This document shows, one piece after another, positions 54,858 to 60,675 of a stretch of DNA of 64,000 nt. The first letter of the stretch is position 1, and each line of letters begins with the position of its first letter. The DNA is from Vulcanococcus sp. Clear-D1 (lineage in GTDB: Bacteria; Cyanobacteriota; Cyanobacteriia; PCC-6307; Cyanobiaceae): contig NZ_JACVZV010000024.1 in assembly GCF_014654725.1 (NCBI RefSeq), positions 62,001 through 126,000 of the forward strand. Reading direction: 5' to 3'. A program made the position numbers and the translations under genes. The notes under the pieces are model-generated. The model had not been told where the DNA came from. It was given only the letters and a program-made list of their open reading frames with translations, and searched no databases.

Positions 54858-56057
54858 TCAAACCCCCGGGTTCTCTTCCGGTTTCTGCCGCGGTTTGTAA
54901 AGCGTGCGCGGCCCCAGCGGGTGGTCGGCATGGGGATAGGGCGCATGGGTGTGGCCGTGGTCATGCGCGTGGTCATGCCCGTGGGCGTGATCGTGGGAAT
55001 GACCGTGCGCATGGTCATGGCTGTGGTCATGTGAGTGACCATGGCTGTGGTGCCCGAGCGGGATCGGGATGCCATCGGGCTGACAGGCGCCGGTGCACTC
55101 GAGCTCGCAGAGGGTGCAGGCTTCCACCAGGCCTTCCACGTGGTGGTGATGGCTCTGCTGCGGAGCGCCCACCTCGGTTTCAAACCCCAGCACCTGGGCG
55201 CGGTATTTGCAGAGAGAGCAGTTCATCTGCGTCTCACCGCGCACCACCTCCTGCACGCGCTCCAGGAAGGTATTGAGCACCAGCGGGTGATCGCCCAGGT
55301 AGCTCGCGTCCACAAACTCCAGCTCCGGGTGATCGGCCGCCACCAGCTGGGTGTGCTGGCGGATGCGGCTCACCAACACCCCCGAAAAGAGGAAGTAGGG
55401 GAACACCACGATGCGCCGGAAGCCGAGCTTCACGGCATGGCGCAGGCCAGGCTCCACCAAGGGGAAGGTGACGCCCGAATACACGGTTTCGCCCCAGCCA
55501 AAGCCAAAGCCTTCCACCAACATCCGCGCCACCTTGGCCACGTTGGAGTTGGCATCGGGATCCGACGAACCGCGACCCACCACCACCAGCAACGTGTCGC
55601 TGAGGGGCACCGGCTCCTCCCCGCGTGAAGCAGCGGCGCTCTCTGACGCATCCAGCGCTTCGCGGATGCGGGCTCCGGCCGCCTGGATCATGCTCAAGTC
55701 AACGCCGAGCTCGCGGCCGTAATCAATGCGCAGGCCGGTTTCCGCCGCATAGGTATTGAGCACGGAGGGGATGTCGTTCTTGGCATGGCCGGCGGCGAAC
55801 AGCATCCCGGGCACCGCCAACACCCGCTTCACGCCCTGGGCCCGCAGGCTGTCGAGCCCATCGCGCAGGATCGGCCGCGCGAATTCCAAATACCCGTATT
55901 CCACTGGCACACCCGGCAACAGCTCGCGTAAGCCTTCAGCGAGCTGGGCAAATTCACCCACTGCCTGGCGGTTGCGGCTGCCGTGGCCACAGATCAACAC
56001 CCCGATCGGGCCACCTTCAACGGCGTTGAAATCAAGCTGCGGCGAGGGGTTGCCCAT
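54858..56057 (-). CDS. cbiX: CbiX-type sirohydrochlorin chelatase with His-rich tail
   Basis: A 399-residue protein. Two CbiX-like halves are visible (N-terminal IGVLICGHGSRNRQAVGEFAQLAEGL and PGMLFAAGHAKNDIPSVLN, then DTLLVVVGRGSSDPDANSNVAKVARML and IVVFPYFLFSGVLVSRI), as in long sirohydrochlorin cobaltochelatases. Cys-rich segments follow (MNCSLCKYR, CTLCELECTGAC), possibly an Fe-S site. The C-terminal tail (about 334-378) is almost all His/Asp/Gly/Ala and should store or deliver cobalt or nickel. It inserts Co2+ (or Fe2+) into sirohydrochlorin for cobamide or siroheme. The start is ATG 56057. Confidence 0.87.
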   Translation of the reverse strand: MGNPSPQLDFNAVEGGPIGVLICGHGSRNRQAVGEFAQLAEGLRELLPGVPVEYGYLEFARPILRDGLDSLRAQGVKRVLAVPGMLFAAGHAKNDIPSVLNTYAAETGLRIDYGRELGVDLSMIQAAGARIREALDASESAAASRGEEPVPLSDTLLVVVGRGSSDPDANSNVAKVARMLVEGFGFGWGETVYSGVTFPLVEPGLRHAVKLGFRRIVVFPYFLFSGVLVSRIRQHTQLVAADHPELEFVDASYLGDHPLVLNTFLERVQEVVRGETQMNCSLCKYRAQVLGFETEVGAPQQSHHHHVEGLVEACTLCELECTGACQPDGIPIPLGHHSHGHSHDHSHDHAHGHSHDHAHGHDHAHDHGHTHAPYPHADHPLGPRTLYKPRQKPEENPGV

Positions 56058-56160
56058 GGGAACACATTCCTGAACCGACCCTATCGGCACAACACCACCC
56101 AACCCTGATCAGCCAAGGAAGACCCAACACCTAGGGTGCCTCCAAACAACCGATCCACCC

Positions 56161-56846: not shown

Positions 56847-58388
56847 TCAGTGCCCGGCCGCGAGCGCTCCGCCTCGACCACCAGCTTCCTCCGCCACGCC
56901 GATCCGGGCAAACAGATCGGTGCTCTCGCGGTTGAGGTGCAGCACCTCCACGGCGCTGCCGCCCAGCTTGAGGCGGCGGATCACCTGATCCAGGGCCGTC
57001 ACGCCGCTTTGATCCCAGATGTGGGCGTCGGCCATGTCGATGGTGACGCGGGCCGGGTGCTCGTGCAGCTCGAAGCCCTGGCGGAAGTAGATGCTGCTGA
57101 CAAAGAACAGTTGGCCGCGCACGGTGTAGACGCGGTGATCGGGTGCCACCAGCGCGCTGTCAACGGCAATCACCTTGGCCACCTTTCGGCTGAAGAGCAG
57201 GCCTGCCAGGGCTACGCCGGCGAGCAGGCCCACCGCGAGGTTGTGGGTAAGCACGGTAACCACCACGGTGAGGAGCATCACAGCGGTGTCGCTCTTGGGG
57301 ATGCGGCGGATGCCGCTGATCGAGCCCCAGTTGGCGGTGTTGATCGCGATCATGATCATCACGCCCACCAGCGTGGCCATCGGGATCTGATTCACCCACT
57401 GGCTGGCCAGCAGGATCATCGCCAGCAGCGCCACACCCGAGGTGAGGGTGGAGAGGCGGGTGCGGCCGCCGTAGCCCACGTTCATCACCGACTGACCCAC
57501 GAGGGCGCAGCCGGCCATGCCGCCGAACAGCGAACTCACGATGTTGCCGATGCCTTGGCCACGGGCCTCGGCGTTTTTGTGGCTGGAGCTATCGGTAATG
57601 TCGTCGAGGATGTCTTGGGTGAGGAAGGTTTCCATCAGGCCCACCAGCGAGATCGCCAGGGCCGTGGGCAGGATCAGGCCGAGGGTTTCCAGGTTGAACG
57701 CCACCTGCGGTAGGCCCAGCTGCGGCAGGCCCTCCGGCAGGGTGCCGAGACTGGCCACGGTGGGTACCTCCAGCCCCAACTGAATCGAAAGGCCGGTGCT
57801 GATCATGATCGCCACCAGGGCCGAGGGCACCGCGGTGGTGAGGCGGGGCAGCAGATAAATGATCGCCAGGGTGAGCGCCATCAGGCCCCACACCGCCGGC
57901 AGCTGGGCAGCGGCCACCACCACCTTCTCGGGATGGAACACATCCAGCCCCAGCTGCGGTAACTGCGCCAGGAAGATCAGGATCGCCAGCGCATTCACAA
58001 ATCCAGCCATCACGGGCTGGGGCACGAAGCGCATCTGGTGGGCTAGGCGCAGATAGCCCCAGGCGATCTGCAACACGCCGGTGAGCAGTCCGGCGGCCAG
58101 GAGGTATTGCAGGCCCATACCCTCGCCCAGGCCATTGCCCTGTTGCACCAGCCCGGTCATCAGCAGGGCGGTGGAGCCCGTGGCGGAGGTGATCATCGCG
58201 GTGCGGCCACCCACCACCGCCAGGGTCACCGACAGCAGAAACGCCCCGAACAGACCCACCCGCGGATCCACGCCGGCAATGCCTGAGAAAGCGATCGCCT
58301 CGGGGATCATCGCGAAGGCCACCACCAGGCCGGAGAGGATGTCGCGGTGGGGGCGATCCCACCATTGCTTCAGGGAGTCCTGCACCAC
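56847..58388 (-). CDS. SulP-family anion transporter (BicA/sulfate type)
   Basis: About 514 residues from a GTG at 58388 (GTG 58400 and 58385 are alternatives; no ATG). It has 10-12 membrane segments with SulP motifs: LSGLVVAFAMIPEAIAFSGIAGVDPRVGLFGAF, TGSTALLMTG, FGGMAGCALVGQSVMNVGYGGRTRLSTLTSG, and a C-terminal STAS domain (about 430-514, VTIDMADAHIWDQSGVTALDQVI). Cyanobacterial members take up bicarbonate (BicA) or sulfate with Na+. Substrate cannot be fixed from sequence here. Two tiny genes precede it in the same operon. Confidence 0.85.
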   Translation of the reverse strand: MVQDSLKQWWDRPHRDILSGLVVAFAMIPEAIAFSGIAGVDPRVGLFGAFLLSVTLAVVGGRTAMITSATGSTALLMTGLVQQGNGLGEGMGLQYLLAAGLLTGVLQIAWGYLRLAHQMRFVPQPVMAGFVNALAILIFLAQLPQLGLDVFHPEKVVVAAAQLPAVWGLMALTLAIIYLLPRLTTAVPSALVAIMISTGLSIQLGLEVPTVASLGTLPEGLPQLGLPQVAFNLETLGLILPTALAISLVGLMETFLTQDILDDITDSSSHKNAEARGQGIGNIVSSLFGGMAGCALVGQSVMNVGYGGRTRLSTLTSGVALLAMILLASQWVNQIPMATLVGVMIMIAINTANWGSISGIRRIPKSDTAVMLLTVVVTVLTHNLAVGLLAGVALAGLLFSRKVAKVIAVDSALVAPDHRVYTVRGQLFFVSSIYFRQGFELHEHPARVTIDMADAHIWDQSGVTALDQVIRRLKLGGSAVEVLHLNRESTDLFARIGVAEEAGGRGGALAAGH

Positions 58389-58417
58389 AACCCAACGCAC
58401 CCGCTGGCCGGACCCTA

Positions 58418-58513
58418 TCAACGCAGCAACCGCAGCCAGGCCCACCAGATCAACACCACCGGCACCAGGGCCAGGGCCAGCACTTGCAGGCTTTGCAGCT
58501 GCTCTGGGTTCAT
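58418..58513 (-). CDS. 31-residue single-helix membrane peptide
   Basis: A reading frame below normal size limits. Its ATG (58513-58511) overlaps the TGA (58512-58510) of the gene upstream as ATGA, so translation is coupled. The product is a 31-residue peptide with one hydrophobic helix (residues about 10-28: LALALVPVVLIWWAWLRLL) and a charged N terminus. Its stop is about 20-30 bases before the SulP start. This layout resembles small membrane subunits that regulate a transporter, but no family match is known to me. Confidence 0.6.
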   Translation of the reverse strand: MNPEQLQSLQVLALALVPVVLIWWAWLRLLR

Positions 58514-58731
58514 CGCACTGGGCAGGGCTGGGAGTTGATCAACAGCAACCCCAACAGGCCGCATTGAAGGCGTGTGAGGTCATCGAGGGCCAGCTCCACA
58601 TCGGACGCGAATCCAGGGTTGGTGGCGGGTTCCGCCACCACCGGGGCAGGCTCCAGAGGCAGTGGCAGCGCTTCAGCCAAGGCTGCGGGAGCCGCAGCAA
58701 CCACGAGCAAGCCAAGCAACAGAGCCTTCAT
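58510..58731 (-). CDS. Small exported protein upstream of SulP gene
   Basis: A 73-residue protein with a signal peptide (KALLLGLLVVAAAPAALAEA) followed by a proline-rich acidic segment and a CGLLGLLLINSQPCPVR C terminus containing two Cys. It is the first of three minus-strand genes leading to the SulP transporter. Its TGA overlaps the next ATG. It lies 24 bp after the cupin gene, which is on the same strand. Function unknown. Confidence 0.6.
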   Translation of the reverse strand: MKALLLGLLVVAAAPAALAEALPLPLEPAPVVAEPATNPGFASDVELALDDLTRLQCGLLGLLLINSQPCPVR

Positions 58732-58755: not shown

Positions 58756-59430
58756 CTAGCCAAAGCTCGAGGTTGTAGCCGGCAGGTGCCCGGTTTTCAC
58801 CCAAATCGTGCAACCGGCATCGCTCCAGGGGCGGTGCACGCTGCCCGGTGGATTGCGCAACCAACTGCCAGCGGGATAGGTGCCGTGTTCGTCTTGGAAC
58901 ACACCATCAATCACGTAGATCTCCTCGCCACCGGGATGGCTGTGGGCCTGGAAACGGGTTCCCGGCGCCCAGCGCACCAGCGCCACCTGTTCGCTGCCGA
59001 AGGCGTGCAACGGCAACACCGCCAGACCTGGCACCAAGCCCGGATGCCAGGCGGCCGCATGGGTGTCAATCACCACCCGCTGCTGATCCTCAGGATGCAT
59101 CTGCTGCAGCTTCACCAACAGCGTGCAACCGCTCTCGCTAAAAGGTGCGTGGGCTGATCCGGGCGGATTGCGCAGGTAGGTGCCGGCGGGGTAGAGGCCT
59201 TGCTCATCCGCGAAGGTTCCCTCGAGCACCAGGATCTCCTCGCCACCCCCGTGCCCATGCAGGGCAAAACGGCTGCCAGCTGCGTAACGCACCACCGATG
59301 TAGCCCGTGCCACTTCAGCGCCGATCCGCTCGAGCAGGCGCCGCTCCACACCCGGTGAGGGCGAAGCCACCCAGGCCAGCTCTGCAGTGTTGAGCGCCAC
59401 CGGTTGGCGCCAATCGCCATGGAGAGTCAT
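58756..59430 (-). CDS. Two-cupin protein, ChrR-like
   Basis: A 224-residue protein made of two similar cupin halves. Each has a metal-binding HxH-x3-E cluster (ALHGHGGGEEILVLEG near residue 57; QAHSHPGGEEIYVIDG near 165) and a GTYLRNPPGS/GSWLRNPPGSVH segment, as in the ChrR/cupin-2 domain of zinc anti-sigma factors. There is no adjacent ECF sigma gene and no anti-sigma N-terminal zinc domain, so enzymatic or sensing roles remain open. Its start overlaps the stop of the small membrane gene at 59427 (ATGA). Confidence 0.82.
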   Translation of the reverse strand: MTLHGDWRQPVALNTAELAWVASPSPGVERRLLERIGAEVARATSVVRYAAGSRFALHGHGGGEEILVLEGTFADEQGLYPAGTYLRNPPGSAHAPFSESGCTLLVKLQQMHPEDQQRVVIDTHAAAWHPGLVPGLAVLPLHAFGSEQVALVRWAPGTRFQAHSHPGGEEIYVIDGVFQDEHGTYPAGSWLRNPPGSVHRPWSDAGCTIWVKTGHLPATTSSFG

Positions 59431-59720
59431 CCGTTCTGGCGAACGCGCTTCACGGCCAAACCGGCTTCTGTGGCGGTGACGCCAGCTAACACCAGGAGAC
59501 CGATCAACCCCACCAGCTGGTTCTGAGCTTCAGCAGCCGCATCGGCGTTTTGAGCCAGAACGGCACCAGCCACAAACCAGGCCGTGACCAAGGCTGAGGT
59601 GATCCAGTAGGCGCGCCAACGGCGCTGATAGAGGTAGCCAGCGCCCAGGCCCGGCACCACATTCAGCACCACCGCCACCCAACCAGCCGAGGCGGCAAGG
59701 ATCTGCTCACGGGTGGGCAC
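59427..59720 (-). CDS. Small membrane protein
   Basis: A 97-residue protein with three hydrophobic stretches (ILAASAGWVAVVLNVVPGLGAGYL, ITSALVTAWFVAGAVLAQ, LVGLIGLLVLAGVTATEAGLAV). The sequence VPGLGAGYLYQRRWRAYWI resembles TM2-type small membrane proteins. The TGA overlaps the cupin start (ATGA), so the two are coupled. Function unknown. Confidence 0.6.
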   Translation of the reverse strand: MPTREQILAASAGWVAVVLNVVPGLGAGYLYQRRWRAYWITSALVTAWFVAGAVLAQNADAAAEAQNQLVGLIGLLVLAGVTATEAGLAVKRVRQNG

Positions 59721-60228: not shown

Positions 60229-60528
60229 TCAAGCGGATTGCATAGACCAGGCGATCGATCCGCTGGACGACTGCAGATGGCGGCTGCTCACCAGTTCACC
60301 GGTGCAGGCCACAGGCAACAGGCTGGAGCGGCCCGCTGCATACCAGGCAGCCACAAGAGCAGCGCTCGAGCCTGGCGTGAGCTCTCCGGCCAGGATCCAG
60401 AGCTCGTCGTGGAGAACCTGGGTCTGATCCGGCGTTCCCACGTACCAGGGCGCTTCGGGATCCACGGACAACTCCTCATGGAGCAGCAAGAGGCCCTCCA
60501 GAACGCAGGCGGCGAGCTCGGGTGTCAT
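60229..60528 (-). CDS. Hypothetical protein
   Basis: A 99-residue protein from ATG 60528 (an ATG at 60549 adds seven residues). The sequence TPELAACVLEGLLLLHEELSVDPEAPWYVGTPDQTQVLHDELWILAGELTPGSSAALVAAWYAAGRSS is mostly helical and acidic. No signal, membrane segment or known motif is seen. Confidence 0.5.
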   Translation of the reverse strand: MTPELAACVLEGLLLLHEELSVDPEAPWYVGTPDQTQVLHDELWILAGELTPGSSAALVAAWYAAGRSSLLPVACTGELVSSRHLQSSSGSIAWSMQSA

Positions 60529-60675
60529 CCGCTGGAGAAGAACAACCATCCACGCACAGCAGCGGGGACGGACGCAAGCGAATCAACGCCATGACCATCC
60601 CGATGCTGCAGATGCGCTGCAAGGGAGGGGCTGCCGAATTCGCGTTCTTAGGACTGGATCACAAGGGAGTGAGCC

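Follow-up and report, generated by a model that had tools for sequence, protein, structure and literature searches.

PsaM, PsbM, PetL, PetN and PsbT are small single-helix subunits of photosystem or cytochrome complexes. KdpF, AcrZ and CydX are small accessory subunits of transporters or oxidases and stay with their partner. Two micropeptides of Synechocystis are comparable to the peptide studied here. Norf4, 31 aa long with one transmembrane segment, is a conserved micropeptide without known function, and its homologues are reported to be missing from alpha-cyanobacteria (PMC5126843). SliP4/HliR1, of 37 aa, is described in excerpts of two articles as acting in the association of NDH1 with PSI or PSII (PMC12850537, PMC5126843); these passages report no homologues beyond Synechocystis (PMC5126843) and control by RpaB (PMC12850537).

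The window, i.e. the whole stretch of 64,000 nucleotides of Vulcanococcus sp. Clear-D1 that was analysed, carries on its minus strand a run of ORFs ordered, 5′ to 3′, p97, tandem cupin, p73, p31 and SulP. The head of the run, p97 (59427..59720), encodes a conserved membrane protein of 97 aa that matches Pfam DUF6677 below the cut-off only. It is followed by a tandem ChrR-like cupin (58756..59430; Pfam Cupin_7, 1e-67, two stretches) and by p73 (58510..58731), a 73-aa exported protein with a signal-peptide-like N-terminus and two conserved Cys near the C-terminus. p31 (58418..58513, ATG start, TGA stop) encodes a 31-aa single-span membrane peptide, MNPEQLQSLQVLALALVPVVLIWWAWLRLLR, and precedes a SulP-family transporter with Sulfate_transp and STAS domains (56847..58391; Pfam PF00916, 1e-50). 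Past SulP lie a 221-aa gene on the opposite strand and then, again on the minus strand, a CbiX-family protein (54858-56102). The long His-rich tail of the latter (HSHGHSHDHSHDHAHG...) is likely a metal-binding segment.

The first-pass annotation of this DNA had pointed to an ATGA overlap between the exported protein and the peptide, and to a short gap between the peptide and SulP. Both agree with the ORFs of the window: the ATGA at 58513-58510 combines the p73 stop with the p31 start, and the most likely SulP starts, GTG at 58391 or 58388, lie 26–29 nt past the p31 stop. An alternative in-frame GTG at 58445 (532-aa ORF) would make SulP overlap p31.

A single-sequence search with p31 found relatives in 15 of 151 genomes at E<=0.1. 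A profile built from 12 relatives recovered 34 of 400 genomes of the family Cyanobiaceae at E<=0.01, and a wider profile, seeded like the other wider ones with earlier matches, raised this to 84 of the 400 at E<=0.001. In a sample of 339 genomes from the phylum, searched with a profile narrower than the one that gave 84/400, the peptide was present in 20, every one from its own family, and none was found outside it. A scan of named genomes gave 18 loci from Vulcanococcus, Cyanobium, Synechococcus HJ21-Hayes, CS-1330, CS-1331 and MAGs. By genus, the peptide was present in 17/25 genomes of the own genus (11/14 good ones), 27/34 of genus g5 (18/19 good ones), 22/31 of g34 (17/24 good ones) and 11/16 of g45 (9/11 good ones). 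In g5 it is mostly single copy, with 29 matches in 27 genomes. The peptide was not found in 316 of the 400 family genomes, many of them incomplete, nor in 7 of the 24 good g34 genomes, and it is therefore strictly required by no core complex. Decayed copies also occur, with a stop (G195), without the WW (G143) or with a broken 5′ end (G223), so the peptide must be dispensable in places.

That the peptide is translated had been proposed from its coupling to p73, and frames broken in relatives had been named as the observation that would speak against it. Conservation of the frame extends over many genomes, and selection upon it makes translation very probable. For seven unique sequences, namely the six SulP-adjacent copies and that of G263, whose locus has no SulP, pN/pS was 0.099, with pN<pS in 21 of 21 pairs. 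For 27 sequences of the MNPEQ type it was 0.335 in frame (pN<pS in 351/351 pairs), whereas the two shifted frames gave 0.84 and 2.32; it was, for 47 unique sequences of the marine type 0.272 (1077/1081 pairs); pairs in all these counts are not independent. The p31 frame is under strong purifying selection, and it presents the conserved short coding frame under selection that is expected of cyanobacterial micro-proteins. In favour of an untranslated chance ORF carried within a DNA repeat, some non-syntenic copies in Cyanobium have flanking DNA in common, over ~15 to 100 nt on the upstream side and at most ~28 nt on the downstream side. However, among the distant pairs listed, homology in many ends at the ORF ends, and pN/pS is well below 1 in the true frame only. 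We rejected the chance ORF on account of this selection: it has scarcely any likelihood left, and the p31 ORF is almost certainly a real gene, as far as sequence can tell. Separately, repeated DNA lies beside the peptide at four loci (L112, L069, L101 and L053); read by eye on the opposite strand, it resembles a protein gene at its 3′ end (...DRHKLLAAWLRR).

Family members are mostly 31–44 aa long, with one (G141) of 57 aa as read, and share the consensus M-[ND]-P-E ... L ... P-V ... W/F ... W-[IL] ... [ML]-L, followed by a variable, mostly basic tail. AlphaFold2, supplied with 14 aligned sequences, predicted p31 as one helix spanning residues 3–30 (mean pLDDT 95.9), which agrees with the single transmembrane helix expected of cyanobacterial micro-proteins. 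Of 78 unique peptides, 74 carry more positive charge on the C-side than on the N-side, and in the remaining 4 the two sides are equal; by the positive-inside rule this suggests an N-out/C-in topology.

Relatedness between sub-types was examined by training a profile on one sub-family and scoring the remaining ones with it, next to 4,918 real small ORFs and 1,540 shuffles for comparison. With the marine-trained profile, 17 of 27 MNPEQ peptides beat the best decoy or shuffle, and with the MNPEQ-trained profile 19 of 50 marine peptides did so; the best decoy was thus not beaten directly by 10/27 and 31/50, respectively. The bridging EELRF/EELQF type (6/6) and the MDPEAQ type (3/3) scored above decoys both ways. 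Marine and freshwater forms would therefore constitute one family by way of these bridging types, a grouping that has to be read in the light of short hydrophobic sequences.

No model naming the peptide was found in four libraries. Pfam and NCBIfam gave no match near the cut-off, with three stray matches to unrelated models at E 0.1–0.8 (HMMER filters drop weak matches in these searches). PADLOC had no match, and PHROGs had no naming model and one weak match, to a marine form (E 0.052). The family was thus previously unmodelled in Pfam, NCBIfam, PHROGs and PADLOC, and no published description of the peptide appeared among the best-ranked matches listed from a largely open-access literature. 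Taken with its conservation, the selection and the predicted helix, p31 appears to represent an undescribed family of small single-span peptides of alpha-cyanobacterial Cyanobiaceae.

The first-pass annotation had also proposed that the peptide serves the adjacent transporter as an accessory, and had suggested looking for the ORF beside sulP genes in relatives. Within the genus, the order p73-p31-SulP is kept in six genomes (G000, G134, G165, G177, G281 and G064), which makes the arrangement more than accidental. Among 91 oriented loci sorted by a crude immediate-neighbour rule into 29 context groups, some cut by short contigs, SulP lies within 3 kb of the peptide in 2: the window's group of six genomes and G141/G213, in which the peptide follows another SulP, from its sequence a putative BicA, with one gene between. 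Two of 29 is slightly above what chance would give by a rough estimate (P about 0.018), a figure which, like those given below for p97 and tRNA genes, is post hoc and assumes random placement, a given genome size and gene number, and independent groups. The window SulP itself scores 174.8 bits with the curated BicA model, whose cut-off is 880, and so is not a BicA by that measure; the NCBIfam cut-offs for sulP and DauA are not reached either.

Accessory proteins that stabilise or gate a transporter are expected to co-occur with it and to stay adjacent across relatives. Neither pattern was observed. A PF00916 search of 38 genomes left nine without a match at E<=1e-10, of which seven carry the peptide (G200, G209, G244, G263, G081, G126 and G158; G244 and G263 are 83–85% complete). 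At the G263 locus, the DNA homologous to the window takes in the gene at 60276-60565, goes on with p31 alone (95 nt, 80%) and passes directly into the 221-aa gene and CbiX; SulP, p73, the cupin and p97 are all absent between these same outer neighbours. Conversely, in four genomes of the own genus (G009, G092, G115 and G258) a SulP in a similar score class lies apart from the peptide, and the adjoining SulP is not always the same orthologue: in G064 (L050, 5996-7546) the slot after p31 holds another SulP with an identity of about 56%. At this locus p73, p31 and the 221-aa neighbour were seen to be kept despite the changed transporter.

As the peptide persists without SulP at the G263 locus and in the seven genomes, and the G064 slot holds another SulP, p31 appears independent of SulP, which is very probably not its obligate partner. 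The accessory role was accordingly rejected as a general function and is now quite improbable even with the conserved order in six genomes and the position behind SulP in G141 and G213 in its favour. A minor link between peptide and transporter may exist, because 2/29 slightly exceeds rough chance. Retention in genomes lacking the neighbouring transporter indicates that the peptide probably acts elsewhere in the membrane.

The remaining contexts are diverse. The peptide starts 3 nt after an AAA-domain protein (G024/G097/G138), 2–3 nt after a protein of about 130 aa (eight g34 genomes), or, in the Cyanobium group, 4 nt after a 43-aa membrane peptide without Pfam match (L052, L250 and L248; G045b/G214/G254a). 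At its 3′ end the peptide gene overlaps, in 13 genomes of g5, an ORF that in the one instance tested was DUF1499. Close gene spacing is common in bacterial operons and therefore proves nothing by itself. With 29, the number of distinct contexts is if anything overestimated, because G254b was grouped apart yet carries the 43-aa-plus-peptide block of group 8, and G263 was grouped apart from the window's group although the outer neighbours match. We also considered an unusually mobile, 'nomadic' gene, and discarded it with a control: in the same 40 genomes p97 fell into 11 context groups and the peptide, counted by its first copies only, into 14, which gives the peptide no clear lead over p97 in mobility. 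The NtcA pattern occurred in 0 of 91 upstream regions (<=300 nt), with ~4.6 matches in shuffles.

p97 could itself be the partner, perhaps as the original neighbour of the peptide. It heads the run in the window; in G119 and G154 the p97 ORF and the start of the peptide gene overlap directly; and it lies 5.5–6.0 kb upstream on the same strand in eight g34 genomes and, in G143, on the opposite strand at a distance of 4.5 kb. Altogether, 4 of the 29 groups have p97 at 6 kb or less (P about 1.5e-5 on the same rough assumptions), and such nearness above rough chance could reflect a neighbour-bound function. It may equally be leftover synteny, and in most genomes with both genes on one contig they are far apart, for example separated by 35–45 kb in both G162 and G112 and by some 300 kb in G174 as well as G131. 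Distributions also differ, p97 being present in 297 of 400 family genomes vs 84 for the peptide: genera without the peptide, which we take to be Prochlorococcus-like, carry p97, whereas G263 has the peptide and no p97 match. We consider this partnership unlikely. As for the other neighbour, p73 was found at eight places, itself included, at E<1e-7 in 151 genomes, without Pfam or NCBIfam match; it forms an exported-protein family of its own, marked by the two conserved Cys near the C-terminus. In five genomes (L022-L026) no p31, cupin, p97 or SulP was found near p73 within about 1.5 kb on each side, less at contig ends and more for three of them.

Some copies lie close to tRNA or tmRNA genes. 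At 7 of 91 loci (L052, L247, L248, L250, L051, L251 and L155), a tRNA-Pro or a permuted tmRNA ends within 400 nt upstream of the peptide on the same strand. These belong to 4 of 29 groups, in g45 and g5 (G045b/G214/G254a; G158; G045a/G183; G147). The rough P is 4e-6, or 0.002 at fivefold intergenic bias; it becomes 2e-4 to 0.016 when G158 is merged with the G045b group, with which it has a tRNA in common. G045b (L052) carries on the 5′ side of the tRNA a DUF3987 gene and a recombinase-like ORF, the latter without Pfam match and, from its motifs, a putative integrase. In G223 (L112/L252), a 16-nt match to the tRNA-Pro 3′ end and flank, resembling an attachment-site scar, was noted about 140–150 nt upstream of the broken copy. 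The proximity fits, without proving it, a spread through islands at such genes.

The peptide might then be a type I toxin-like or selfish membrane peptide travelling on these islands, which would suit its patchy presence, its decayed copies and the several copies of some genomes (three in G045, two each in G106, G254, G209 and G207). Against this, the peptide is near-core and mostly single copy in g5 and is under strong purifying selection, and its tight coupling behind other genes differs from type I toxin leaders. Moreover, viral contigs searched with profile A3 yielded 11 pattern matches and no confirmed relative, phage records queried with one marine form a single weak match (E 0.5), and plasmids queried with one freshwater form none. 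A phage or plasmid origin found no support in these searches, and the toxin-like or selfish reading is, to judge from sequence, improbable.

The reading that we favour, at a probability of roughly 0.4, is that p31 is a translated, trans-acting small membrane protein modulating another membrane complex and located in variable regions, with several copies beside tRNA-Pro or tmRNA genes. The strong selection, its occurrence in the majority of the genomes sampled from four genera, its independence from neighbours and the single helix with a central Pro-Val argue together for a trans modulator or small subunit; trans action in particular is suggested by the context, since the peptide may follow, precede or stand clear of many unrelated genes. 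In the window, p31 would be translated by coupling to p73 through the ATGA overlap. It would then act in trans rather than on its neighbour, its Pro-Val/Trp helix packing against a widely conserved membrane complex whose assembly or activity it may tune, by analogy with small photosynthetic and respiratory subunits; its place before SulP would be incidental. More speculatively, and with considerably less confidence, the peptide, near-core and confined to alpha-cyanobacteria, could serve a photosynthetic or respiratory membrane complex as a small subunit or in its assembly, having moved between chromosomal sites partly via tRNA-Pro/tmRNA islands, in marine Synechococcus and freshwater Cyanobium/Vulcanococcus alike. 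Marine Synechococcus are major primary producers of the ocean. If this holds, a near-universal small membrane protein of one marine Synechococcus genus would be missing from the four libraries searched, and its signature, PV...W...L in 31–41 aa, offers a concrete target. Gene adjacency can also mislead for micropeptides, the apparent partner here, SulP, being dispensable.

Compared by description, Norf4 is like p31 in having 31 aa and one transmembrane span, and unlike it in being missing, according to the excerpts cited above, from alpha-cyanobacteria, exactly the host group of p31. SliP4/HliR1 is likewise a small one-span peptide and is RpaB-controlled in the passages cited, whereas an HLR1-like pattern was found in 0 of 91 regions upstream of the p31 family (<=300 nt). 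PsaM, PsbM, PetL, PetN and PsbT resemble p31 in size and in their single helix; p31 differs in not being universal in its family, and gave no match to curated models of the PsaM/PsbM/PetL type in Pfam and NCBIfam, where HMMER filters drop weak ones. With KdpF, AcrZ and CydX, p31 shares the layout of a single-helix peptide beside a larger membrane protein; these keep their partner, whereas p31 does not stay with SulP.
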